A DNA stretch of 34,642 bases from Candidatus Liptonbacteria bacterium. Its GTDB lineage: Bacteria; Patescibacteriota; Minisyncoccia; UBA6257; 2-01-FULL-56-20. The position numbers were made by a program, and so were the translations under genes. The notes under the pieces were generated by a model, which was not told the origin of the DNA, made no database searches, and saw only the letters and a program-made list of their open reading frames with translations. The stretch lies in contig JACOXZ010000002.1 of assembly GCA_016182105.1 (NCBI GenBank), positions 1 to 34,642 on the forward strand. The letters are read 5' to 3'. Positions 1-10,495 of the stretch are shown here, piece by piece; the stretch's first letter is position 1; each line of letters begins with the position of its first letter.

Positions 1-313
1 TTGCGTTCTCGATTGCCGCTAAAATCTTCAGGCGGTTACGGATGATGCCCTCGTCTTTGAGGAGCCGCTTTACATCCCGAGCGCCGAAGTGCGCGACCTT
101 CTTTGGGTCGAATCCCCGGAACGCCTGCTCGAACCCTTTTCGCTTCTTCACCACAATCGCCCAGCTTAACCCTGCCTGGAAAGCGTCTAAAACCATAAAC
201 TCAAAAAGCTTTCGGTCGTTGTGGAGCGGCACTCCCCACTCGCGGTCATGGTATCGAACCATGAGCGGGTTCGTCCCTGGCCAATCGCAGGTTCCCAAAA
301 TATTATGTTTCAT
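1..313 (-). CDS. tag: DNA-3-methyladenine glycosylase I, N-terminal part (truncated by window edge)
   Basis: Not in the ORF track. Minus-strand translation from ATG at 313: MKHNILGTCDWPGTNPLMVRYHDREWGVPLHNDRKLFEFMVLDAFQAGLSWAIVVKKRKGFEQAFRGFDPKKV...; the YHDxEWGVPLHxDRKLFE and QAGLSW motifs are typical of Tag. Confidence 0.9.
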   Translation of the reverse strand, partial: MKHNILGTCDWPGTNPLMVRYHDREWGVPLHNDRKLFEFMVLDAFQAGLSWAIVVKKRKGFEQAFRGFDPKKVAHFGARDVKRLLKDEGIIRNRLKILAAIENA

Positions 314-341
314 CTGCTTTAATTTTAGCAGCAGATTTTTT

Positions 342-376
342 GTTTAGAAAAAAGCCCCATCATGGTGATGGGGCTA
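342..376 (-). terminator. Intrinsic terminator
   Basis: Minus strand AGCCCCATCACCATGATGGGGCT followed by TTTTTT. Confidence 0.75.
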
Positions 377-497
377 TCCAGACAGAAGTGTTTGATGGTG
401 TTGGCCGTCGGTCCTATGTAACTTCTCCCTTTTTTGGTTTTTGGTTTCACGCCCAACGCAACGAAGGGCATGGTTAATATGTTAATATACTGAATAA

Positions 498-525
498 ATA
501 ATAGCAATCATGTAAGGGGTGTCAA
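498..525 (-). promoter_or_regulatory. Sigma70-like promoter
   Basis: Minus strand TTGACA (525-520), 16-nt spacer, TATTAT (503-498). Confidence 0.6.
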
Positions 526-585
526 GCGTACCCGGCCTCTCAACCTATAGGCATATATTATTGACCAGAAGTCATGAGAAGTCAC

Positions 586-617
586 TAAAAAGGGGCGGGG
601 ATGAATTCCCGCCCCAG
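586..617 (-). terminator. Intrinsic terminator downstream of the 948-aa secreted protein
   Basis: Minus strand GGGGCGGGAATTCATCCCCGCCCC followed by TTTTT. Confidence 0.7.
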
Positions 618-639
618 CTGAAAAGGTACTGCATTCGTG

Positions 640-3480
640 TTACTTCAGCAGCATCATTCGTTTGATGTCTTTCCGCGCACCGTCGTAGGACAAGGCGTAG
701 AAGTACATGCCGCTGGCTGCCGGTTTGCCATTTTCATTTTGACCATCCCAAACTACGGAATAGTCGCCTGCCAGGCGAAACCCCTGCTCAACCATTCGTA
801 CATGCTGCCCAAGCGTGTTAAAAATCTTAAGCTCTATGTACCCGTCATGCGGCAACGAGTAAGAAATTGCCGTTTGGCTATTGAATGGATTGGGGTAGTT
901 CTGGGCCAACGAGTATGCGTACGGCACGGGAATGCGTGATGCCACAAGCGGCATCTCCCATCCGTCCTGCGTACTCGCCGACATAACAACTATCATTAGC
1001 TCGTCCGATGAATGAAACCGTGCAATGAGCGTGCGGCCAGCCGGTACGACAGTACGCAACTGGTCTTGATCGATGCTCAGGAACCGCGAGGTGTCCCCCT
1101 TCCTTTCGAACCGGCAATCCGGAAGCAAACTGTCCGGATCTGATGAGATTCCAGTCAACGTCATCGCCAACCCGGCCAGCTCCACCGGCGTTTCTAGCCA
1201 CAACTCGTTGCCTTCCGTCCAGACGTACGCCGGGGCCAACGGTGCAACCTTCGCCAGTGCAGGCGCGTCGTGCACTATTACCCGGATTAGGTAGACTAGG
1301 TCGGCTACGGTCAGAGGAATCCCATCGCGATTGACTTCGCTCACTCGCTCGTGGAGATCAAAGAAGAGTGGATCGAATACTGCCCGCCCTTCGATGAAGT
1401 AGCGCGAGTAGAGGACGGCGTCGCCGATCTCGTACGACTCGAAGTTGAGATTGAGATCGCCAATTTGCATATTGAAGCCCAGAGGCCCAATGACCGTTGG
1501 CAATTGCCACGTCCCGTCCCAGTGCGCGAACGCTCCTTTCACGCGCACCTGTTTGGTGCCGGGCAGCAGCGAAACCGGGATGTCAAACTCGTACCACGTC
1601 CGCGTAGTCGGGTGGCCAAGGAAGACGCAACCGTTCATGAGCGACGGGCCACCGATGATTTCCACGGATAGGTTTCCCAGGAAATTCAGCAACCCGACGC
1701 GCACACCGTTGACACCGGTTTCCACCTGTATACTCGGCGAGGTTTGGTTGAATACCAGCAAGCTCGGGGCCTCATCAAACGTATTCAAGTCCCAGTTGAG
1801 CACGGTATACAGCGTGGAGCCATTCACGATACACACCCTCGCTTCGTTCGATGCGTCATAGGCCACGTTCACTTGTCCGGTAAACGGGCTTAAGACGGCC
1901 GAATACTCGGTTGCAATCACGGTTTCCAGGAACTTGAAGTTCCCGAGATCGAGCACGGCAAACGTCATCGCCGTGCCGAAGTTCACGCCGTCACGGTGGT
2001 ACAGCCAGTAATTGATGCAATTGGGATCAACACAATTTGGCTGATAGTCATTATCGTTGACCGTCCATCCGATCATAGCCAGCGTCGACTCGTCGAGGTC
2101 CCAATTCATGCGTGAAGCGTTCATCAACGAGCTGTCTTGCGGCGCGCCTGAACACTCTTCGCAATTGTTATTCACTCGACGAATTTCCCCGCACCGCTTC
2201 TCGCAACCCGGGACCGTGGTACAGGCGTACCAGGCCAGGTCACACGCGTTCGGTTGGTGCAGAAGTTCGTGGCAGAACGCCAACGGGAATAGACTGGAGT
2301 CGCTCCCCGTTCCCACGACACTGTAGTACCCGCTCACGTCACGATCGTTGTCACCGTCCACGTCCCATCCGCCGGGGTAATCCTGATAATTCGCCCACCA
2401 AATGTCGTCGCCCAAGCCGAGTCCGAATTTGTCGTACCCGGCGGTAAATGGCACCAACATCACCGCAGCATGGTTTGCCCAGTTCGCGCGTCGGTTGTCA
2501 TTCACCCAACGGCGGTATGCGGCGGTTCCGCCTTCGGCATACCCCTGCGATGCGGCCACCCAGCTGACCCAGTCAGTCACGTTCGATGAGCCGGAAAATT
2601 GCTTGCCGCTCGAACGCTTGACCGGCGTTTGCTGGACCCGGACAGTGCCGCTGGGATTGTTGGAGACGAACTCCACCACCCAATCCTGTGGGATATTGCG
2701 CGTCGCGGCCACCCGTGACAGGTACGATAGGCCGATGACGATTTGCCGTTTGTACCGTTCAACCTGACCAGGAGTCAGGTGGTACTTGGTTGAATCACCG
2801 CCATCCACCAGCGCCACCGCAATGTGTACTCGGCCGACCCAGTAGTTGAAGGTCAGCTTGTCCTGCTTCAACGCGATGTCATCCAGGTCAGCCACGCCCA
2901 TCACCGGGTCGGGAACCGTCGCCAGGTTGCCCTCGAAGTCATAGTACAACCCCGTGGCAGACCGCGCGGTTACCGCGGTGGTCACCCGCTGTTGCGTTAA
3001 ACCTGCGTCCGCGTCTGTGGCAGCGTTAATAGCCGCAATGGCCGACTCTTCCGTCATCCACTGCTTCGCGTGCGCGAGCAACGCTTCAGCCTCTGCCGTT
3101 GGGCGCCCGTTCGCTTTCGCTAAGTCAATGACTGACTGAACGGCCTGCCAACGCTGTTCGAGCGTCGGCGGGCGCTCGTCAATACTGTAGACGTGAGAAT
3201 AATCGAGCGAGGCACTCATCTGCCACGCATCACGAATCCAGGTGAACTCGGACGCACCTAATGGCTGCAATCCGAATCTGCCTGTCTTTGCTCCAGACGC
3301 GGTGATGATGTGCGCCTGCCCGTTGTCGATCACGGTGCCGATAACCCGGACGCCGCTCTCGATCATCTGCCGACGCACCTCATTGGCCTCTCGCTCACCT
3401 ACCGTGCGAATGCCCGGCTCATCAACTGCAAAAGTGGCCGAGGACAGAAGCATTGCCAAAAAAACTGTAAGGGTTTTCAT
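640..3480 (-). CDS. Secreted metalloprotease-like protein with dockerin-like segment and C-terminal FlgD-Ig/T9SS type A sorting-like domain
   Basis: Signal peptide MKTLTVFLAMLLSSATFA; HELLH zinc-binding motif; dockerin-like VNRDGIPLTVADLVYLIRVI; C-terminus NYPNPFNSQTAISYSLPHDGYIELKIFNTLGQ...ASGMYFYALSYDGARKDIKRMMLLK. Start at 3480 chosen because AAGGAGG lies 7 nt upstream; the ORF track starts at 3486. Confidence 0.85.
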   Translation of the reverse strand: MKTLTVFLAMLLSSATFAVDEPGIRTVGEREANEVRRQMIESGVRVIGTVIDNGQAHIITASGAKTGRFGLQPLGASEFTWIRDAWQMSASLDYSHVYSIDERPPTLEQRWQAVQSVIDLAKANGRPTAEAEALLAHAKQWMTEESAIAAINAATDADAGLTQQRVTTAVTARSATGLYYDFEGNLATVPDPVMGVADLDDIALKQDKLTFNYWVGRVHIAVALVDGGDSTKYHLTPGQVERYKRQIVIGLSYLSRVAATRNIPQDWVVEFVSNNPSGTVRVQQTPVKRSSGKQFSGSSNVTDWVSWVAASQGYAEGGTAAYRRWVNDNRRANWANHAAVMLVPFTAGYDKFGLGLGDDIWWANYQDYPGGWDVDGDNDRDVSGYYSVVGTGSDSSLFPLAFCHELLHQPNACDLAWYACTTVPGCEKRCGEIRRVNNNCEECSGAPQDSSLMNASRMNWDLDESTLAMIGWTVNDNDYQPNCVDPNCINYWLYHRDGVNFGTAMTFAVLDLGNFKFLETVIATEYSAVLSPFTGQVNVAYDASNEARVCIVNGSTLYTVLNWDLNTFDEAPSLLVFNQTSPSIQVETGVNGVRVGLLNFLGNLSVEIIGGPSLMNGCVFLGHPTTRTWYEFDIPVSLLPGTKQVRVKGAFAHWDGTWQLPTVIGPLGFNMQIGDLNLNFESYEIGDAVLYSRYFIEGRAVFDPLFFDLHERVSEVNRDGIPLTVADLVYLIRVIVHDAPALAKVAPLAPAYVWTEGNELWLETPVELAGLAMTLTGISSDPDSLLPDCRFERKGDTSRFLSIDQDQLRTVVPAGRTLIARFHSSDELMIVVMSASTQDGWEMPLVASRIPVPYAYSLAQNYPNPFNSQTAISYSLPHDGYIELKIFNTLGQHVRMVEQGFRLAGDYSVVWDGQNENGKPAASGMYFYALSYDGARKDIKRMMLLK

Positions 3481-3492
3481 GGTCATGCCTCC

Positions 3493-3909
3493 TTACGGCT
3501 GCTGCGCGATCGCTGGATCGGCGCGCAATGTGTCACCAACAAACGAGTACTGCAGACGATTCTCGCTCCATCCCGGTAGCGTCACCCAAATACCCGCCGA
3601 TTTGGTGGGGTCAACAGTACCATCCTTCCGGACGAGCCCGGCGAACTTGTCGTACGTCCAGGGAGCGGTTTCCCCGTTCCCGTCCGTGACCAGGTTGACG
3701 CCAGGGTTTACTTCCCCGGGCATCGCTTTCGGGGTGATGTTCACTGTCGCGCCCTTGACGCGGATGGTGGCACCGGTTGTATCAATGCCCGATACCACCA
3801 CGCAGACCGTTCCGGTGAGCGGAACGTACTGGTCGGGCGCAACGGGATTGCTACATCCTGCCACTAACGCCACGAGCGGTAGTGCCACTAACTTCAGTTT
3901 CTTTCCTAT
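3493..3909 (-). CDS. Predicted lipoprotein; probable upstream non-canonical start (ORF-track start 3888)
   Basis: Lipobox LVAGCSN; extending in frame to codon ATA at 3909 gives a basic n-region (GKKLKLVALPLVALVAGC) with AAGGAG 7 nt upstream. Confidence 0.55.
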   Translation of the reverse strand: MGKKLKLVALPLVALVAGCSNPVAPDQYVPLTGTVCVVVSGIDTTGATIRVKGATVNITPKAMPGEVNPGVNLVTDGNGETAPWTYDKFAGLVRKDGTVDPTKSAGIWVTLPGWSENRLQYSFVGDTLRADPAIAQQP

Positions 3910-4038
3910 ACGATCACTCCTTATACTATGGGGTTTACGGTTATTGTAGGTTTTGTCTATTTTTTCTTATTCAATTGTCAAATAGTCAACATTATTACCC
4001 TAAGAATTTTAACCTCATTTGTCAAATGTAAGAATTGT

Positions 4039-4094
4039 TGGTGCGTCCACCAATCGCTCCGCCATGCCGCCCGGCTTAAAGTTCTTTCAATACC
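4039..4094. repeat. Left copy of a 56-nt inverted repeat flanking the lipid cassette
   Basis: Reverse complement matches 8244-8299 at 52/56 positions; the four differences are all transitions. Confidence 0.9.
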
Positions 4095-6592
4095 CCTTCT
4101 AATTTTCTTGTCACTTCAATATACGAATCAGATTTTTTAAATTTAATCGGCTTGCCGAATTTTACCGAAACCTGTCCTCCTTTCCGAGGCATAATTTTGC
4201 CAGCCGGCATAATATCTGCCGTACCGCTGATTTTTACCGGAACAATATAAGAATCCATTTCCACTCCGACGAGTCCCGCTCCGCGCTTAAGAGGCAATAA
4301 CTCGCGAGTCATGCTCATTTTCCCCTCTGGATAAACGGCAATTGACCAATTTTTGTCTAAAAGGCGACCCATGTATTCTAACCCCGCTTTTATATTTTCA
4401 TGCTCATGCCTCGGGAATGGAAAGGCATTAAAAAATAATTCCACAAGCCAAGCAATATTTTTATATTGTTCATAAAGGACATCTTCGGCGGCGGCAAAAG
4501 CAATCTTTCTTCTGATTTTTAATGGCAAGGCCATCAGCAAAAATAAAGAATCTAGAAAACTCACGTGATTTGGCATAAAAATAGCGGGTAAGGGCAAGTT
4601 TTCAAGGCGATCTTTTCCTTCAATTTTTAATTTCGCAAAAATTCTGGCGAGTGGAAAAATTATTAAAATTTGAGTCAGCATTCGCCCTAAAGAAGCCCGT
4701 CTTGTAAGAGGCCAGTTTTTAAAAGGGGGCGCCTTTTGAGTAGGCTCCTGTCTCCCTACGGGAGATCTCCCGTCGGGAGACTTTTTAATCATTTCTTCTA
4801 GGTCCAAAACGGTGGTTTCTGAACTTATTTTTGCCTCATCAACAGTTATCCCCAACCCTTCTTCAATCCGCGACACCAACTCAACGCGCAAAAGCGAGTC
4901 CAAGTTTAACTCAGAAACTATTTTGGTTTTTTGGCTAATTCCTGAAACATCGTGACCGGTTATCTCGGAGAGTAAGCGCGTAAGCGGCGTTCCTACGAGC
5001 GTGGGTGGTGTCGGAATTTTTGAAGCCTTAAGCCATCGTAACACCTCCTCCTTCTTTACCTTTCTTGTTGCTGATCTTGGGAAATCTTCTCTTGGCCAAA
5101 TTGACCAGCCGGCAATATTCTGATAAGAAGAGAGTTTTTTATTGACCCTGGTTATAATTTTTTCCGGATCCTTGATATCCCCGAGGAGCACAGCGTGAAT
5201 CTCCACTTGACCGCCCGATTTTTCCACTCCAACCACACAGCTGTCTTTCACTTCGGGTATTTTGTTAAGTTCCAATTCTATGTCTTCCGGGTACACATTT
5301 TGAGCGCCTGGGCCTTTAATCATGTATTTTTTTCTGCCTTTAAGATAAAGAAATCCTTCTTTATCCAGTTCCCCAATATCGCCAGTCTTAAACCAGCTTG
5401 CCCCGAGCGCAGTCGAGGGGCCGTCAGCAATAAAGACCTCTTTAGTCTTTTCCTTATTTTGGAAATAACCCTGAAAAATATTCGCTCCTTTAACAAGGAT
5501 TTCTCCGTCAGGAGCGATTTTTACCTCCACGCCGGGTAGAATTTTCCCGACGGATCCGACTCGTTGATCTTCATAACTATTGCTCGACACCACCGGCGAA
5601 GTTTCGGTAAGGCCGTAACCTTGCAAAAGATACACGCCGAGTGCGTTCCACTTCTTTTCAAGCTCCGGATCAAGTGGCGCACCGCCAGAAATCACCGTAT
5701 GGAATCGCCCGCCAAATTTCTTGAGTATTGGCCGCATCAAAATCCGCTGCAGTAATTTTAGTTTCATTGCACCGGAAATCTTCATCAATATCTCAAGCAT
5801 CTTTTTTTTGCCCCCTTCTTGTGCCTGCGCTTCGATTTTCATCATCACCACTCGCAAAAATTCCGGCACGGCCGCCATCGTCGTAATCCGATGCTCTCTT
5901 AAAAGATCGCGAATGGCAGCTGGCGAGTGCGCATAAACAATCGGTGCCCCTTTAGCATAGGGAAGTAAAAATCCGATTACTTGTTCAAAAATATGGCTCA
6001 GGGGTAAAATGGATAAAAATTTATCGGTTTCAGCAATCGGAGCAATTTTTAAAATTGCCTCAAGATTGGAGCTGATATTTTTATGAGTAAGAATTACGCC
6101 CTTGGGGTCGCCAGTGGTCCCGGAAGTGTACATAAGCTCCGCAACATCTTTTTCTTTGATTGGGGGTTTTCTAAAATTGGCGCCTTCGCTCTTGCTTACT
6201 ATTTCATTTAAAAATTCGGCGTCGAATACCGAAAGATTTGACGGGAGCGGCTGTTTATAATGTAAATATTTAAAAACAACTTTTGCGCCGGTTTGTTCGG
6301 CAATTTTTCTTACCAGCTCGCTCGTGCTTTGAATATTAAGCGGCACCGGCACATACCCGCCTAAAATGCTGCCCCACCAAAGACAAATCCAATAGGGAGA
6401 ATTTGGGGCAAGCAAAAGCACCTTATCTTCTCTCTGCAGTCCTTGCCTTTCTAAAAATACCGCAACCCTTTTGGACCATTCGTAAACATCGCCGTAACTC
6501 AAGGAAACAGTGCGATATCCCATTTTCATCACGAGCGCGGTCCGATTGCCATGCTCTTTTGCGTTTTTCTCTAAAATATTAGTGAGCACCAT
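4076..6592 (-). CDS. Fusion of AMP-dependent acyl-CoA/acyl-ACP synthetase, acyl carrier domain and PlsC-type 1-acyl-glycerol-phosphate acyltransferase
   Basis: YTSGTTGDPKGVILTHKN, GYGLTETSP and WFKTGDIGELDKEGFLYLKGRKK (AMP-binding); LNLDSLLRVELVSRIEE (phosphopantetheine site); MPNHVSFLDSLFLL and YPEGKMS (PlsC). Confidence 0.92.
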   Translation of the reverse strand: MVLTNILEKNAKEHGNRTALVMKMGYRTVSLSYGDVYEWSKRVAVFLERQGLQREDKVLLLAPNSPYWICLWWGSILGGYVPVPLNIQSTSELVRKIAEQTGAKVVFKYLHYKQPLPSNLSVFDAEFLNEIVSKSEGANFRKPPIKEKDVAELMYTSGTTGDPKGVILTHKNISSNLEAILKIAPIAETDKFLSILPLSHIFEQVIGFLLPYAKGAPIVYAHSPAAIRDLLREHRITTMAAVPEFLRVVMMKIEAQAQEGGKKKMLEILMKISGAMKLKLLQRILMRPILKKFGGRFHTVISGGAPLDPELEKKWNALGVYLLQGYGLTETSPVVSSNSYEDQRVGSVGKILPGVEVKIAPDGEILVKGANIFQGYFQNKEKTKEVFIADGPSTALGASWFKTGDIGELDKEGFLYLKGRKKYMIKGPGAQNVYPEDIELELNKIPEVKDSCVVGVEKSGGQVEIHAVLLGDIKDPEKIITRVNKKLSSYQNIAGWSIWPREDFPRSATRKVKKEEVLRWLKASKIPTPPTLVGTPLTRLLSEITGHDVSGISQKTKIVSELNLDSLLRVELVSRIEEGLGITVDEAKISSETTVLDLEEMIKKSPDGRSPVGRQEPTQKAPPFKNWPLTRRASLGRMLTQILIIFPLARIFAKLKIEGKDRLENLPLPAIFMPNHVSFLDSLFLLMALPLKIRRKIAFAAAEDVLYEQYKNIAWLVELFFNAFPFPRHEHENIKAGLEYMGRLLDKNWSIAVYPEGKMSMTRELLPLKRGAGLVGVEMDSYIVPVKISGTADIMPAGKIMPRKGGQVSVKFGKPIKFKKSDSYIEVTRKLEGVLKEL
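4750..4781. repeat. 32-nt near-perfect palindrome inside the coding sequence (ACP-PlsC linker)
   Basis: GTCTCCCTACGGGAGATCTCCCGTCGGGAGAC; one mismatched pair. Confidence 0.85.
5400..5421. repeat. REP-like imperfect palindrome inside the AMP-ligase coding sequence
   Basis: GCCCCGAGCGCAGTCGAGGGGC; encodes the extra PSTALGAS between DG and WFKTGD. Confidence 0.7.
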
Positions 6593-6613
6593 CGTTCTTC
6601 AGTTCCTTTCTAA

Positions 6614-6967
6614 TTAAGTTAAAATAAAGACCACGACGGCCATCGCATATTCTTTATCATGGCTGATACTAACATCACGACTTAATATTTTGTCATTAAA
6701 TTCGTGCAGCTGTACTTCTGGCCTTCCATTTCTTTTTTTTATAATTTCAATTTTTTTCCAATCTCCGGCTTTTAATTTCAATACCTTCCCCAGCGCCTTA
6801 ATCACCGCTTCTTTTGCTGCAAAAATACCGGCGAGATTTTCCGGTTTTGAAGCGCCCGCTAATTCAGCCTGAGTAAAGATCTTGTACAAGAATCCTCTCC
6901 CGCCTCTTTTCATTGATTGCTTAAAATGCCCAATATGTACAAGATCACAACCAACTTTTATATCCAT
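6614..6967 (-). CDS. acpS: Holo-[acyl-carrier-protein] synthase
   Basis: MDIKVGCDLVHIGHF, GIFAAKEAVIKALGK and DVSISHDKEYAMAVVV are AcpS motifs. Confidence 0.92.
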   Translation of the reverse strand: MDIKVGCDLVHIGHFKQSMKRGGRGFLYKIFTQAELAGASKPENLAGIFAAKEAVIKALGKVLKLKAGDWKKIEIIKKRNGRPEVQLHEFNDKILSRDVSISHDKEYAMAVVVFILT

Positions 6968-7003
6968 AGTTATAATTTATATAATTAAAGTTAATATAAA
7001 AAT

Positions 7004-8206
7004 ATGCCTAATTGGATCAACAAGAAAGTTATCGCCTGGTCACTATACGATTTTGCCGATACGGCCTTTTCCGCGCTCTTTATTACATTTTTCTTCCCTG
7101 TCCTTATTAAAGTCTATCTTGGCGGGAATGAATTACAAATCGGTCTGGCTATGGGCCTCTCGGTATTTATAGCCGCACTCCTTGTCCCGCTTATTGGCGC
7201 GATGTCCGACGCGTCGGGCAAAAGAATGCCGGTTCTCGTCATAACAGCGTTCCTGACTGCCGGTATCGCCGCCTCGACCGGCTATGCAGGGCTTTTTCTC
7301 GCTCTCGTTCTCGGACTTCTCGCCAACATCACCCACCTAATTTCGAAAGACGTCTATGACGCAAAAATGATTGATATTGTGCCTCGCCAACTTTTTGGTT
7401 CGCTCTCCGGCCTCGGCGTTGCGGTCGGATACTTCGGCACCATTACCAGTTTAGCCATTGCCTATCCGATGTTTTCTTACTTTGGCTGGGAAAGTTTAGG
7501 GAGTATTCGCGCTGCTTTCTGGGAGGCCGGCATATTTTATATACTTTTTTCGTTGCCTTTATTTTTATTTGTTCCCGATATACCGCGACCAACTCGGTCA
7601 CTTTCGGAATCGCTAAAAAGCGGGCTACGTGAGATTAAAAAAACAATCGCATCTCTCCGTCACACTCCTGTTTTAGCAAAATTTCTTGCGTCCTCATTTT
7701 TTTATAACAATGCGATGAACACGGTCATCGTTTTTCTATTCCTCTACGGCCAGCAAGAAATCGGCCTTAGCATCCGGCAATTCTTTCCAGTTTTTGCGAT
7801 AATGGCCTTAGCGGCGGCGATTGGGTCTTATATTTCCGGTAAACTCTCTGATAAATTTGGGCCAATTACAATGATCAAGCTGGCACTATATGTATGGATC
7901 GTGATTATTATCTATCTTCTTTTTATCACTACTTATGCGAGTTTTTTGATTGCCGGCATTCTCGGCGGCGCCGTATTGGGCGCCATCTGGACGCTTAATC
8001 GTCACCTAATTGCAGTCATCAGTCCGGAACATAAAATAGCCGAGTGGTTCGGTTTTGAAGGATTGACAGAAAAATTCTCTGGTGTAATTGGGCCAGTTGT
8101 TTTTGGGTATCTCGTGACTGTATCCGGATACCCCGCAGCATTAATCTCGATGATAATTTTCTTTTTAATCGGCCTTGGATTTATTAGAACAATCAGGCAT
8201 GTTTAA
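7004..8206 (+). CDS. MFS transporter, UMF1/Atg22-like
   Basis: N-terminus KKVIAWSLYDFADTAFSALFITFFFPV plus multiple hydrophobic helices. Confidence 0.85.
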   Translation: MPNWINKKVIAWSLYDFADTAFSALFITFFFPVLIKVYLGGNELQIGLAMGLSVFIAALLVPLIGAMSDASGKRMPVLVITAFLTAGIAASTGYAGLFLALVLGLLANITHLISKDVYDAKMIDIVPRQLFGSLSGLGVAVGYFGTITSLAIAYPMFSYFGWESLGSIRAAFWEAGIFYILFSLPLFLFVPDIPRPTRSLSESLKSGLREIKKTIASLRHTPVLAKFLASSFFYNNAMNTVIVFLFLYGQQEIGLSIRQFFPVFAIMALAAAIGSYISGKLSDKFGPITMIKLALYVWIVIIIYLLFITTYASFLIAGILGGAVLGAIWTLNRHLIAVISPEHKIAEWFGFEGLTEKFSGVIGPVVFGYLVTVSGYPAALISMIIFFLIGLGFIRTIRHV

Positions 8207-8243
8207 TCAGAAACGATATGATTTACTATGCCTCAGAAAAAAA

Positions 8244-8299
8244 GGTATTGAAAGAACTTTAGGCCGGGCGGCATAGCGGAGCGATTGGTGGGCGCACTA
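8244..8299. repeat. Right copy of the 56-nt inverted repeat
   Basis: GGTATTGAAAGAACTTTAGGCCGGGCGGCATAGCGGAGCGATTGGTGGGCGCACTA; inverted match to 4039-4094. Confidence 0.9.
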
Positions 8300-8526
8300 G
8301 GAATCTCCCGCCCATTGTGCGAGCAAAGCGAGCTACAATGGCGTGCCTGCCTGCCGCAGGCAGGGATCCCGCGCTCTTCCACTTTTCAAAATCTTATCAA
8401 ATTTCGCTGGCACAATAGCGGGATCGCGCATCTCTAATTCGCTAGCGCTCAAAGAGCTGCGGGAGAACCTATAACCTCTATGATGTGAACCGAACGCTCT
8501 GCTTCACCCCGCCACTTGGGCGCTTG

Positions 8527-8598
8527 TGGGCGTTGCTGGGATCGAACCAGCGGCCTCTTCGATGTGAACGAAGCGCTCTACCACTGAGCTAAACGCCC
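8527..8598 (-). tRNA. tRNA-Val(CAC)
   Basis: GGGCGTTTAGCTCAGTGGTAGAGCGCTTCGTTCACATCGAAGAGGCCGCTGGTTCGATCCCAGCAACGCCCA; anticodon loop TTCACAT. Confidence 0.9.
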
Positions 8599-8647
8599 AA
8601 GTGGCGGGGCAAGCTCGGCGATGCACGCTCAACCACCTCATCATAAA

Positions 8648-8683
8648 TAAAAAACACCCCGATTTCAATCGGGGTGTTTTTTT
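8648..8683. terminator. Bidirectional-looking intrinsic terminator after rplL
   Basis: AACACCCCGATT TC AATCGGGGTGTT flanked by A-rich and T-rich tracts. Confidence 0.85.
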
Positions 8684-9047
8684 ATTGAATCTCCGCTTGC
8701 CCTCCGGCTGCCTCGAGTTTCTTTTTTATTTCCTCGGCTTCTTCTTTTTTCACGCCTTCCTTCACCATCTTTGGCGCGCCGTCAACTAAGTCTTTAGCTT
8801 CTTTGAGGCCGAGGGTTGTTACCTCACGGATGACTTTGATAACATTAATTTTCTTCTCTCCGCTCGCTTTAAGCATCACGTTAAAAGCGGTTTTCTCTTC
8901 AGCGACTACTCCCCCAGCTGACGCGGTAGCGACTGGCGCAGCAGCAGCTATGCCAAACTTTTCCTCGAGGGCTTTAACCAGCTCCGAAAGTTCTAAGGCT
9001 GTAAGAGATTCTATTTTTGTGATTATATCGTGAAATTTTTCTGACAT
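8682..9047 (-). CDS. rplL: 50S ribosomal protein L7/L12
   Basis: [67 protein letters not shown]. Confidence 0.97.
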
Positions 9048-9069
9048 ATCTATAAAATACTAACGACCT

Positions 9070-9579
9070 TTATCCTGAGTTTATCGAATGGGTCTTGGCT
9101 TTTTGGTCCATTAGATAAAGCAGTGACTTTATCGGTGCGGCTATCATCCCCAAAAGCTGGGATAAAAGAACCTCGCGAGACGGCAGTTGCCCAATCGTGA
9201 GGATCTTCACGGGTTCGATAATAGATTTGCTTTTGATGTCATAACCGCCCAAAATTTTCTCTTTTTCAAGGTTTAATTCTTTAAAAAATTTGAAAATAGG
9301 CGCGCCTATCTCTTCAATCCCAGCCGAAGAAAAAATCGTCCCCATAGAAACCTTGAATTTCCGAACATCAAAATCAATGCCCTTTTCTTTTAGAAGGATG
9401 TTAAGCAGACGCTTTTTGATTACTAGGAATTGGGCGCCCAACTTTTTGAGTTCGCTCCGCAGACGGCGAATATCTTCGTTTTTCACATTATTAAAATCGG
9501 TAAAAACCAAAAGCTGGCTCTTATCGAATAGCTCTTTGCCTTTCTTCAACTCCTCTTGTTTCTGTGACTTACTCTTCAT
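9070..9579 (-). CDS. rplJ: 50S ribosomal protein L10
   Basis: LLVFTDFNNVKNEDIRRLRSELKKLGAQFLVIKKRLL; immediately upstream of rplL. Start MKSKSQ preferred over the ORF-track start. Confidence 0.93.
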   Translation of the reverse strand: MKSKSQKQEELKKGKELFDKSQLLVFTDFNNVKNEDIRRLRSELKKLGAQFLVIKKRLLNILLKEKGIDFDVRKFKVSMGTIFSSAGIEEIGAPIFKFFKELNLEKEKILGGYDIKSKSIIEPVKILTIGQLPSREVLLSQLLGMIAAPIKSLLYLMDQKAKTHSINSG

Positions 9580-9591
9580 AATAAACAAAAA

Positions 9592-9887: not shown

Positions 9888-9917
9888 ACATTATAACAGA
9901 TTAATCTGTTATAATGT
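9888..9917. promoter_or_regulatory. 30-nt perfect palindrome overlapping the -10 of the PaaX-like gene (candidate operator)
   Basis: ACATTATAACAGATTAATCTGTTATAATGT. Confidence 0.8.
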
Positions 9918-9922
9918 CAGAA

Positions 9923-10495
9923 ATGGCAAGAGGGTACGTACGGAGAAAAAACCTGACTAAGGATACACTACTAGGGATCGCGACGGTTGGCGTGCTTTTA
10001 CTAACCGGTGCCGGCGGACATCCCGCCCTAAGTCGCGCCCTCTTAAGTTATTTTAAAGATAAAGTAAAAGCCGCTCGGTGGGCACGCGCACGGAAGATAC
10101 GAGAATTAGAGAAACGAAAGTTGATCAGTATACAAGAAAATGATGATGATGCGATTCGCATCGAGCTTACACACCGCGGTAAGCGAGTTGTGAGACAATA
10201 TCATCTCGACAACCTAAAACTTAAAGTCCCCAGCAAGTGGAACGGCTACTGGCATTTGGCTATTTACGATATTCCTTCTTCGAAACGCAGGGCGAGTGAC
10301 GCCCTTAGACAAAAACTGCGCGACATGGGCCTCTTCCAATTACAAAAAAGCGTATGGGTTGCACCGTATCCATTCCTAGAAGAACTCGAATTCCTCACTG
10401 TCCTCTTCGAGATAGAGCTTAATAAACACATCTACTACTTCCGTAGCCGCGAACTTCCTCGCGAAAAGGAAATTCGCCGATTCTTCTTTGCCTAA
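9923..10495 (+). CDS. PaaX-like transcriptional regulator (winged helix plus Cas2-like middle domain)
   Basis: MARGYVRRKNLTKDTLLGIATVGVLLL...KRKLISIQENDDDAIRIELTHRGKRVV; KWNGYWHLAIYDIPSSKRRASDALRQKLRDMGLFQLQKSVWVAPYPF. ORF track starts at 9914, but TATAAT overlaps that ATG. Confidence 0.85.
   Translation: MARGYVRRKNLTKDTLLGIATVGVLLLTGAGGHPALSRALLSYFKDKVKAARWARARKIRELEKRKLISIQENDDDAIRIELTHRGKRVVRQYHLDNLKLKVPSKWNGYWHLAIYDIPSSKRRASDALRQKLRDMGLFQLQKSVWVAPYPFLEELEFLTVLFEIELNKHIYYFRSRELPREKEIRRFFFA

Follow-up and report, generated by a model that had tools for sequence, protein, structure and literature searches.

How might a bacterium in which no fatty-acid synthesis is detected make use of an acyl carrier protein (ACP)? 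The question is raised by a gene in a stretch of 34,642 nucleotides from Candidatus Liptonbacteria bacterium (Patescibacteriota; assembly GCA_016182105.1, contig JACOXZ010000002.1, positions 1 to 34,642), hereafter the window. The assembly, G000, comprises 588 kb in 28 contigs and is 94% complete. The gene encodes a single chain in which an AMP-ligase, an ACP and a PlsC acyltransferase are fused, and a gene for holo-ACP synthase, AcpS, lies next to it. A preliminary description, made from the sequence alone, had joined these two genes with a divergent transporter of the major facilitator superfamily (MFS) into a lipid-salvage cassette that was flanked by inverted repeats and perhaps transferred or inverted as a unit. 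Our analysis supports this proposal in part: its core holds, and its outer parts do not. As judged from its domains, its conserved residues and its gene neighbourhood, the fusion probably works as an acyl-ACP relay that is complete in itself and serves the salvage of fatty acids in an ultrasmall bacterium without detected type II fatty-acid synthesis (FASII).

Architecture and occurrence of the fusion

The open reading frame (ORF) of 838 codons (4076..6592, minus strand) contains three Pfam domains in the order PF00501, PF00550 and PF01553, as had been read from the letters. The N-domain of a fatty-acid AMP-ligase occupies residues 7-377 (5462..6574, minus strand; PF00501 AMP-binding, E 1.3e-77), and the C-terminal ligase subdomain, with K511 of its A10 motif, reaches approximately residue 522. 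They are followed by an embedded acyl carrier domain at residues 537-602 (4787..4984, minus strand; PF00550 PP-binding, E 1e-7), whose phosphopantetheine site is S566 within a DSL motif, and by a PlsC acyltransferase domain at residues 663-789 (4226..4606, minus strand; PF01553, E 1.6e-18) with an NHxSxLD motif at H676-D681 (HX4D present). Full-length homologues occur in five further genomes of the phylum (G083, G316, G348, G354 and G356). Eight homologues were aligned, of which six belong to this phylum and two do not, and all eight share the ligase residues S157, G158, T160 and K164 of the P-loop, Y326-G327-E330, D405, R420 and K511, the carrier residues D565-S566, and H676, D681 and E756 of PlsC. 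Among NCBIfam profiles the ligase domain scores highest with long-chain fatty-acid ligases, and its best solved relatives are FadD13, MatB and feruloyl-CoA synthetase. For the C-terminal domain a single solved structure is related in sequence, that of T. maritima PlsC (5kym), a lysophosphatidic acid (LPA) acyltransferase.

The neighbouring gene was correctly named as AcpS (117 amino acids; 6614..6967, minus strand; PF01648, E 4e-17; TIGR00556 above cut-off), and precedes the fusion on its strand at a distance of 21 nt. Carriers of the fusion were sought in two samples. The 100 nearest relatives yielded one further full-length fusion, that of G083, a member of the same taxonomic order; 380 genomes across the phylum yielded the window's own and those of G316, G348, G354 and G356. 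The full fusion is therefore patchy (5/380 phylum-wide, 2/101 among the nearest relatives). PF01648 was found in 11 of the 380 genomes, including all five fusion carriers, where it is the adjacent gene in each case. The co-occurrence has a Fisher p of 7.2e-9 over the 380 genomes, a value that is optimistic given the relatedness among genomes; the five carriers represent five different families. With G083 included, AcpS adjoins the fusion in all six carriers of this phylum. The copies beside the G316 and G354 fusions were placed by family search and confirmed by reading frames. The catalytic D8, K52-E53, K57 and the SISH motif are kept in all six, in agreement with the criteria for the AcpS family.

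In G083 the pair is reversed, with AcpS following the fusion in a 4-nt ATGA overlap. Because the gene order differs there, the linkage is not merely one shared arrangement. The other junctions consist of a GTGA overlap in G316, an ATGA overlap in G356, and spacings of 1 nt in G354 and 4 nt in G348, so that the two genes overlap or lie 1-4 nt apart in five of the six carriers, the 21 nt of the window being the exception. These tight junctions fit translational coupling. The start of the G083 fusion is also overlapped by a gene for a 209-residue membrane protein (L033, 8114-8743), which has no Pfam match and reads like a small DedA/YqaA-type protein.

Six of the sampled genomes have AcpS and no full fusion, and five of these six contain a small stand-alone ACP. 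The distance between this ACP and AcpS is 87 nt in G379, 1.2 kb in G362 and 4.5-4.6 kb in G270 and G381; in G193 the two are on different contigs, and the search of G267 returned no such ACP. AcpS in this phylum thus tends to travel with its carrier, and because it does so elsewhere, the embedded ACP of the fusion gains in credibility as a putative working carrier. Among the four loci at which AcpS is near a small ACP (L152-L155, in G362, G379, G381 and G270), we noted further neighbouring genes at three: SDR and MBOAT genes in G362, AMP-ligase and LuxE-like genes in G381, and an AMP-ligase gene in G270.

In a tree of the ligase domain the six fusions of the phylum form one clade (SH-aLRT 96). 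Fusions of this architecture, with the domains in identical order, also occur in Acidobacteriota (Pyrinomonadaceae, L034) and Nitrospirota (L035), where they are 28-29% identical over nearly the full length; both fall outside the clade, and the DNA examined around them contains no AcpS. The architecture thus extends beyond this phylum. The tree fits one origin in the phylum followed by patchy retention or by transfer between lineages, two courses that a quick tree of this kind does not separate. Other ligase matches among the relatives (L004-L008, L010, L018-L027) lie outside the fusion clade, and an 837-residue protein of G260, considered as a seventh fusion, proved to be an alpha/beta-hydrolase::ligase. 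We found no paper in the open-access literature that describes the AMP-ligase::ACP::PlsC architecture. The copy in the window has one peculiarity: the alignment reveals a 24-nt in-frame insert (5397..5420, minus strand), the palindrome CCCCTCGACTGCGCTCGGGG, which adds PSTALGAS to the ligase domain directly ahead of the WFKTGD motif and is absent from the seven other fusions.

A predicted acyl-ACP relay and its alternatives

From the architecture, the conserved catalytic residues, the linkage and co-occurrence with AcpS, and the absence of several lipid-synthesis families from the assemblies, we infer a route of three steps, including its substrates and loading in cis. The neighbouring AcpS would attach the phosphopantetheine arm to Ser566 in the embedded ACP. 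The N-terminal ligase would convert a scavenged fatty acid and ATP to acyl-AMP and load its own ACP in cis. The C-terminal PlsC domain would then pass the acyl group from the embedded ACP on to an acceptor lysolipid, which would thereby become a diacyl lipid.

The genomic context of the six carriers was examined by family searches. Ketoacyl synthase (PF00109) was found in none of the six and in all 14 control genomes; PlsY was likewise found in none of the six, and in 8 of the 14 controls. The ACP of the fusion is the sole PF00550 domain in five of the six carriers, G000 among them, which leaves AcpS without any further PF00550 substrate in those genomes. The PlsC of the fusion is the sole PF01553 domain in five of the six. 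The preliminary description had named a complete FASII together with a stand-alone ACP and no linkage of the genes as evidence against salvage; what we find in G000 is no ketoacyl synthase and no further PP-binding domain, next to a linkage kept in every carrier of this phylum. On a stronger version of this reading, one protein would constitute the whole ACP-dependent lipid machinery of the cell: the sole carrier would be the embedded one, AcpS would be kept solely to arm it, and the protein would complete membrane lipids out of lysolipid and fatty acid obtained by scavenging, with neither FASII nor free ACP. For this version we consider the balance to be even.

The acceptor may differ between carriers. 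The search of G000 returned no PlsY, no CdsA (PF01148), no CDP-alcohol phosphatidyltransferase (PF01066) and no other PlsC; the acceptor there would therefore most likely be an imported lysophospholipid, as with E. coli Aas, and Aas-like reacylation of imported lysolipids is the likeliest role in this genome. In G083 CdsA and, beside it, a CDP-alcohol phosphatidyltransferase adjoin the pair. Synthesis of phosphatidic acid is for this reason the likelier role in G083, where the acceptor would be LPA and the product would feed the synthesis of CDP-diacylglycerol (CDP-DAG).

The same relay could also use LPA, or even glycerol-3-phosphate, as acceptor in all carriers, in which case it would serve de novo synthesis of phosphatidic acid from scavenged fatty acids and not the salvage of lysolipids. 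This is a possibility to be taken seriously, though on balance we doubt it. It accommodates the CDP-DAG genes of G083 and the fact that the C-terminal domain has its nearest solved relative in an LPA acyltransferase, 5kym, and it draws on G316, in which a CarS-like synthase, the weak PF01148 match of that genome, and a PF01066 gene lie close together elsewhere in the genome. The two are approximately 0.8 kb apart (L160, G316:C9, locus 7073-9151), CarS being of the CDP-archaeol synthase family. Against this reading, G083 and G316 are the only carriers with either family: neither PF01148 nor PF01066 is matched in G000, G348, G354 or G356. As PlsY is not found there either, these four of the six carriers would offer phosphatidic acid no known route onward.

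Another reading departs further from lipid salvage. The fusion might be an adenylation–thiolation–acyltransferase unit like those of nonribosomal peptide synthetases, acylating a non-glycerolipid (a glycolipid, an aminolipid or a small-molecule acceptor). Adenylation–thiolation didomain synthetases such as LgrA are among its matches, PF01553 spans acyltransferases with several substrates, and other genomes of the phylum keep AcpS near small ACPs together with the SDR/MBOAT or AMP-ligase/LuxE genes mentioned above. The preference of the ligase for long-chain fatty-acid ligase profiles, the match of the C-terminal domain to PlsC and the CDP-DAG genes adjoining the pair in G083 all speak against it, and we regard it as improbable.

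Several observations weigh against the salvage relay itself. PF00109 served as a proxy for FASII, the other Fab families having not been searched for, and the carrier genomes are assemblies that are 91-99% complete. G356 does have a stand-alone ACP (L158, C33:5576-5833, between nusB and rnc), in a genome that lacks a ketoacyl synthase by the PF00109 search. G354 has two more PlsC-like (PF01553) genes, and the EGxR-type motif of its fused PlsC reads PEAERT, not PEG. Fatty-acid specificity of the ligase is suggested by its nearest families, FadD and PRK06187, which it matches below cut-off. The AlphaFold model of the fusion is of moderate quality (pLDDT 74, pTM 0.59) and does not inform on the contacts between domains; it served for fold assignment alone. 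Finally, no importer of fatty acids or lysolipids was identified with confidence.

The transporter, the inverted repeats and the surroundings

The candidate importer in the window is an MFS/ATG22 (UMF1-like) transporter of 400 amino acids (7004..8206, plus strand; PF07690, PF11700), which is divergent from AcpS, with start codons 36 bp apart. No relatives of it occur in the neighbourhoods of the other five fusions, and only 3 of the 100 nearest relatives have one. It matches no LplT-type NCBIfam model at E 0.001, and G000 has a paralogue at C8:5047-6234. Its absence beside the other fusions, the missing LplT-type match and the second copy elsewhere led us to reject it as a member of the cassette. 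The linkage of fusion and AcpS remains of the proposed three-gene cassette, and the transporter drops out of it; its position is what speaks for a possible role in lipid uptake.

The inverted repeats are real, and a chance origin is unlikely. The left arm (4034..4094, minus strand) includes the last codons of the fusion (VLKEL stop), as had been pointed out, and the right arm (8244..8304, plus strand) contains a duplicate of this VLKEL-stop segment. Over 61 nt the two arms show 90% complementarity, and 51 of 54 positions pair in an ungapped core; the local score is 93, versus a best of 30 in 500 shuffles. Since they are 90% alike and not identical, a simple fold-back of the assembly is argued against. 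The proposal that the repeats bound a mobile or invertible unit, consisting of the three genes with the transporter, can call on the reality of the repeats, on the fact that they bracket exactly three genes and on the patchy occurrence of the fusion, and is very unlikely nonetheless: the repeat occurs nowhere in the genome outside these two arms, no target duplication was found beside them, none of the three genes between them encodes a transposase or recombinase, the other fusion loci lack the marker words of the repeat, and the left arm belongs to the coding sequence of the fusion. The shortest of these words, CCGGGCGGCAT, also turns up alone at unrelated places. The repeats had further been said to contain a tRNA-like 5' half. 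We rejected this idea: neither ARAGORN nor permissive Rfam scans called a tRNA in the arms, and shuffled arms resemble 27 real tRNA genes just as well as the arms themselves do. Just right of the right arm lies a palindromic word, TGCCTGCCGCAGGCAGG (window 8348-8364), whose sole match among the loci searched is the same site.

Beyond the right arm follow a gene for tRNA-Val and ORFs at 8682-9588 that read as rplL and rplJ. Also beside ribosomal protein genes, at window 9914-10495, is a gene for a 193-residue protein with a Cas2-like PaaX middle domain (PF20803). To the left, positions 1-3950 of the window have a GC content of 55%, compared with 43-49% over most of the remainder, and show the lowest tetranucleotide correlation with G000:C8 (0.20). 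This segment encodes a 948-residue protein with a type IX secretion sorting tail (640-3486, minus strand). The segment may be foreign or a chimeric contig end, with a junction near 3.9-4.0 kb.

Comparison with known systems

A lipidomic study of the Candidate Phyla Radiation (CPR) described membranes rich in lysolipids and identified no ACP-producing or ACP-requiring enzymes in the genomes examined (PMC7242380). The fusion–AcpS pair is a candidate for this missing ACP-dependent class. If the genome of the window is a CPR genome, as its size and relatives indicate, a minority of CPR bacteria has an ACP-dependent enzyme hidden as a fusion domain, always beside AcpS and with no ketoacyl synthase found. 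The fusion would then be a specific candidate for the enzyme that makes diacyl membrane lipids from lysolipids and fatty acids of the host. This suggests how some presumed symbionts could finish membranes that they are not able to build from scratch.

Two types of known enzymes share part of the predicted chemistry. Stand-alone acyl-ACP synthetases of the AasS type make acyl-ACP from fatty acid, ATP and holo-ACP, the reaction predicted for the fusion, in which, however, the ligase is covalently joined to both its carrier and the acceptor enzyme. Single-protein fusions of LplT and Aas (NF006386 and NF005291, acyl-[ACP]--phospholipid O-acyltransferase) likewise unite several steps of lysolipid acylation in one chain. 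These profiles of 1140-1147 positions are matched partially, by the ligase part, with 206/1221 and 176/1349 bits, far below the curated cut-offs.

The closest comparison is with E. coli Aas, which makes acyl-ACP from free holo-ACP and acylates lysophospholipids flipped in by LplT (PMC11416262). Both proteins have a ligase and a PlsC-type transferase in one chain, with acyl-ACP as the donor, here a predicted one, and in the window an MFS gene is nearby as well. The differences are equally clear. In Aas the transferase (1-203) precedes the synthetase (204-719), the reverse of the order in the fusion (PMC11416262). Aas uses free ACP, whereas the fusion has a carrier of its own. The conserved partner of Aas is LplT and that of the fusion is AcpS, the transporter of the window having no LplT-family profile match. 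The fusion also scores 158.9 bits against a cut-off of 886 for the Aas model NF005959. Because domain order, model scores and partner gene differ, the fusion is not to be filed as Aas. Of the resemblance to Aas and LplT that had been suggested, the LplT half is lost by profile, and the Aas half agrees with the absence of PlsY, CdsA and PF01066. Judged by this analogy, the fusion plausibly performs Aas-like chemistry with a built-in carrier.

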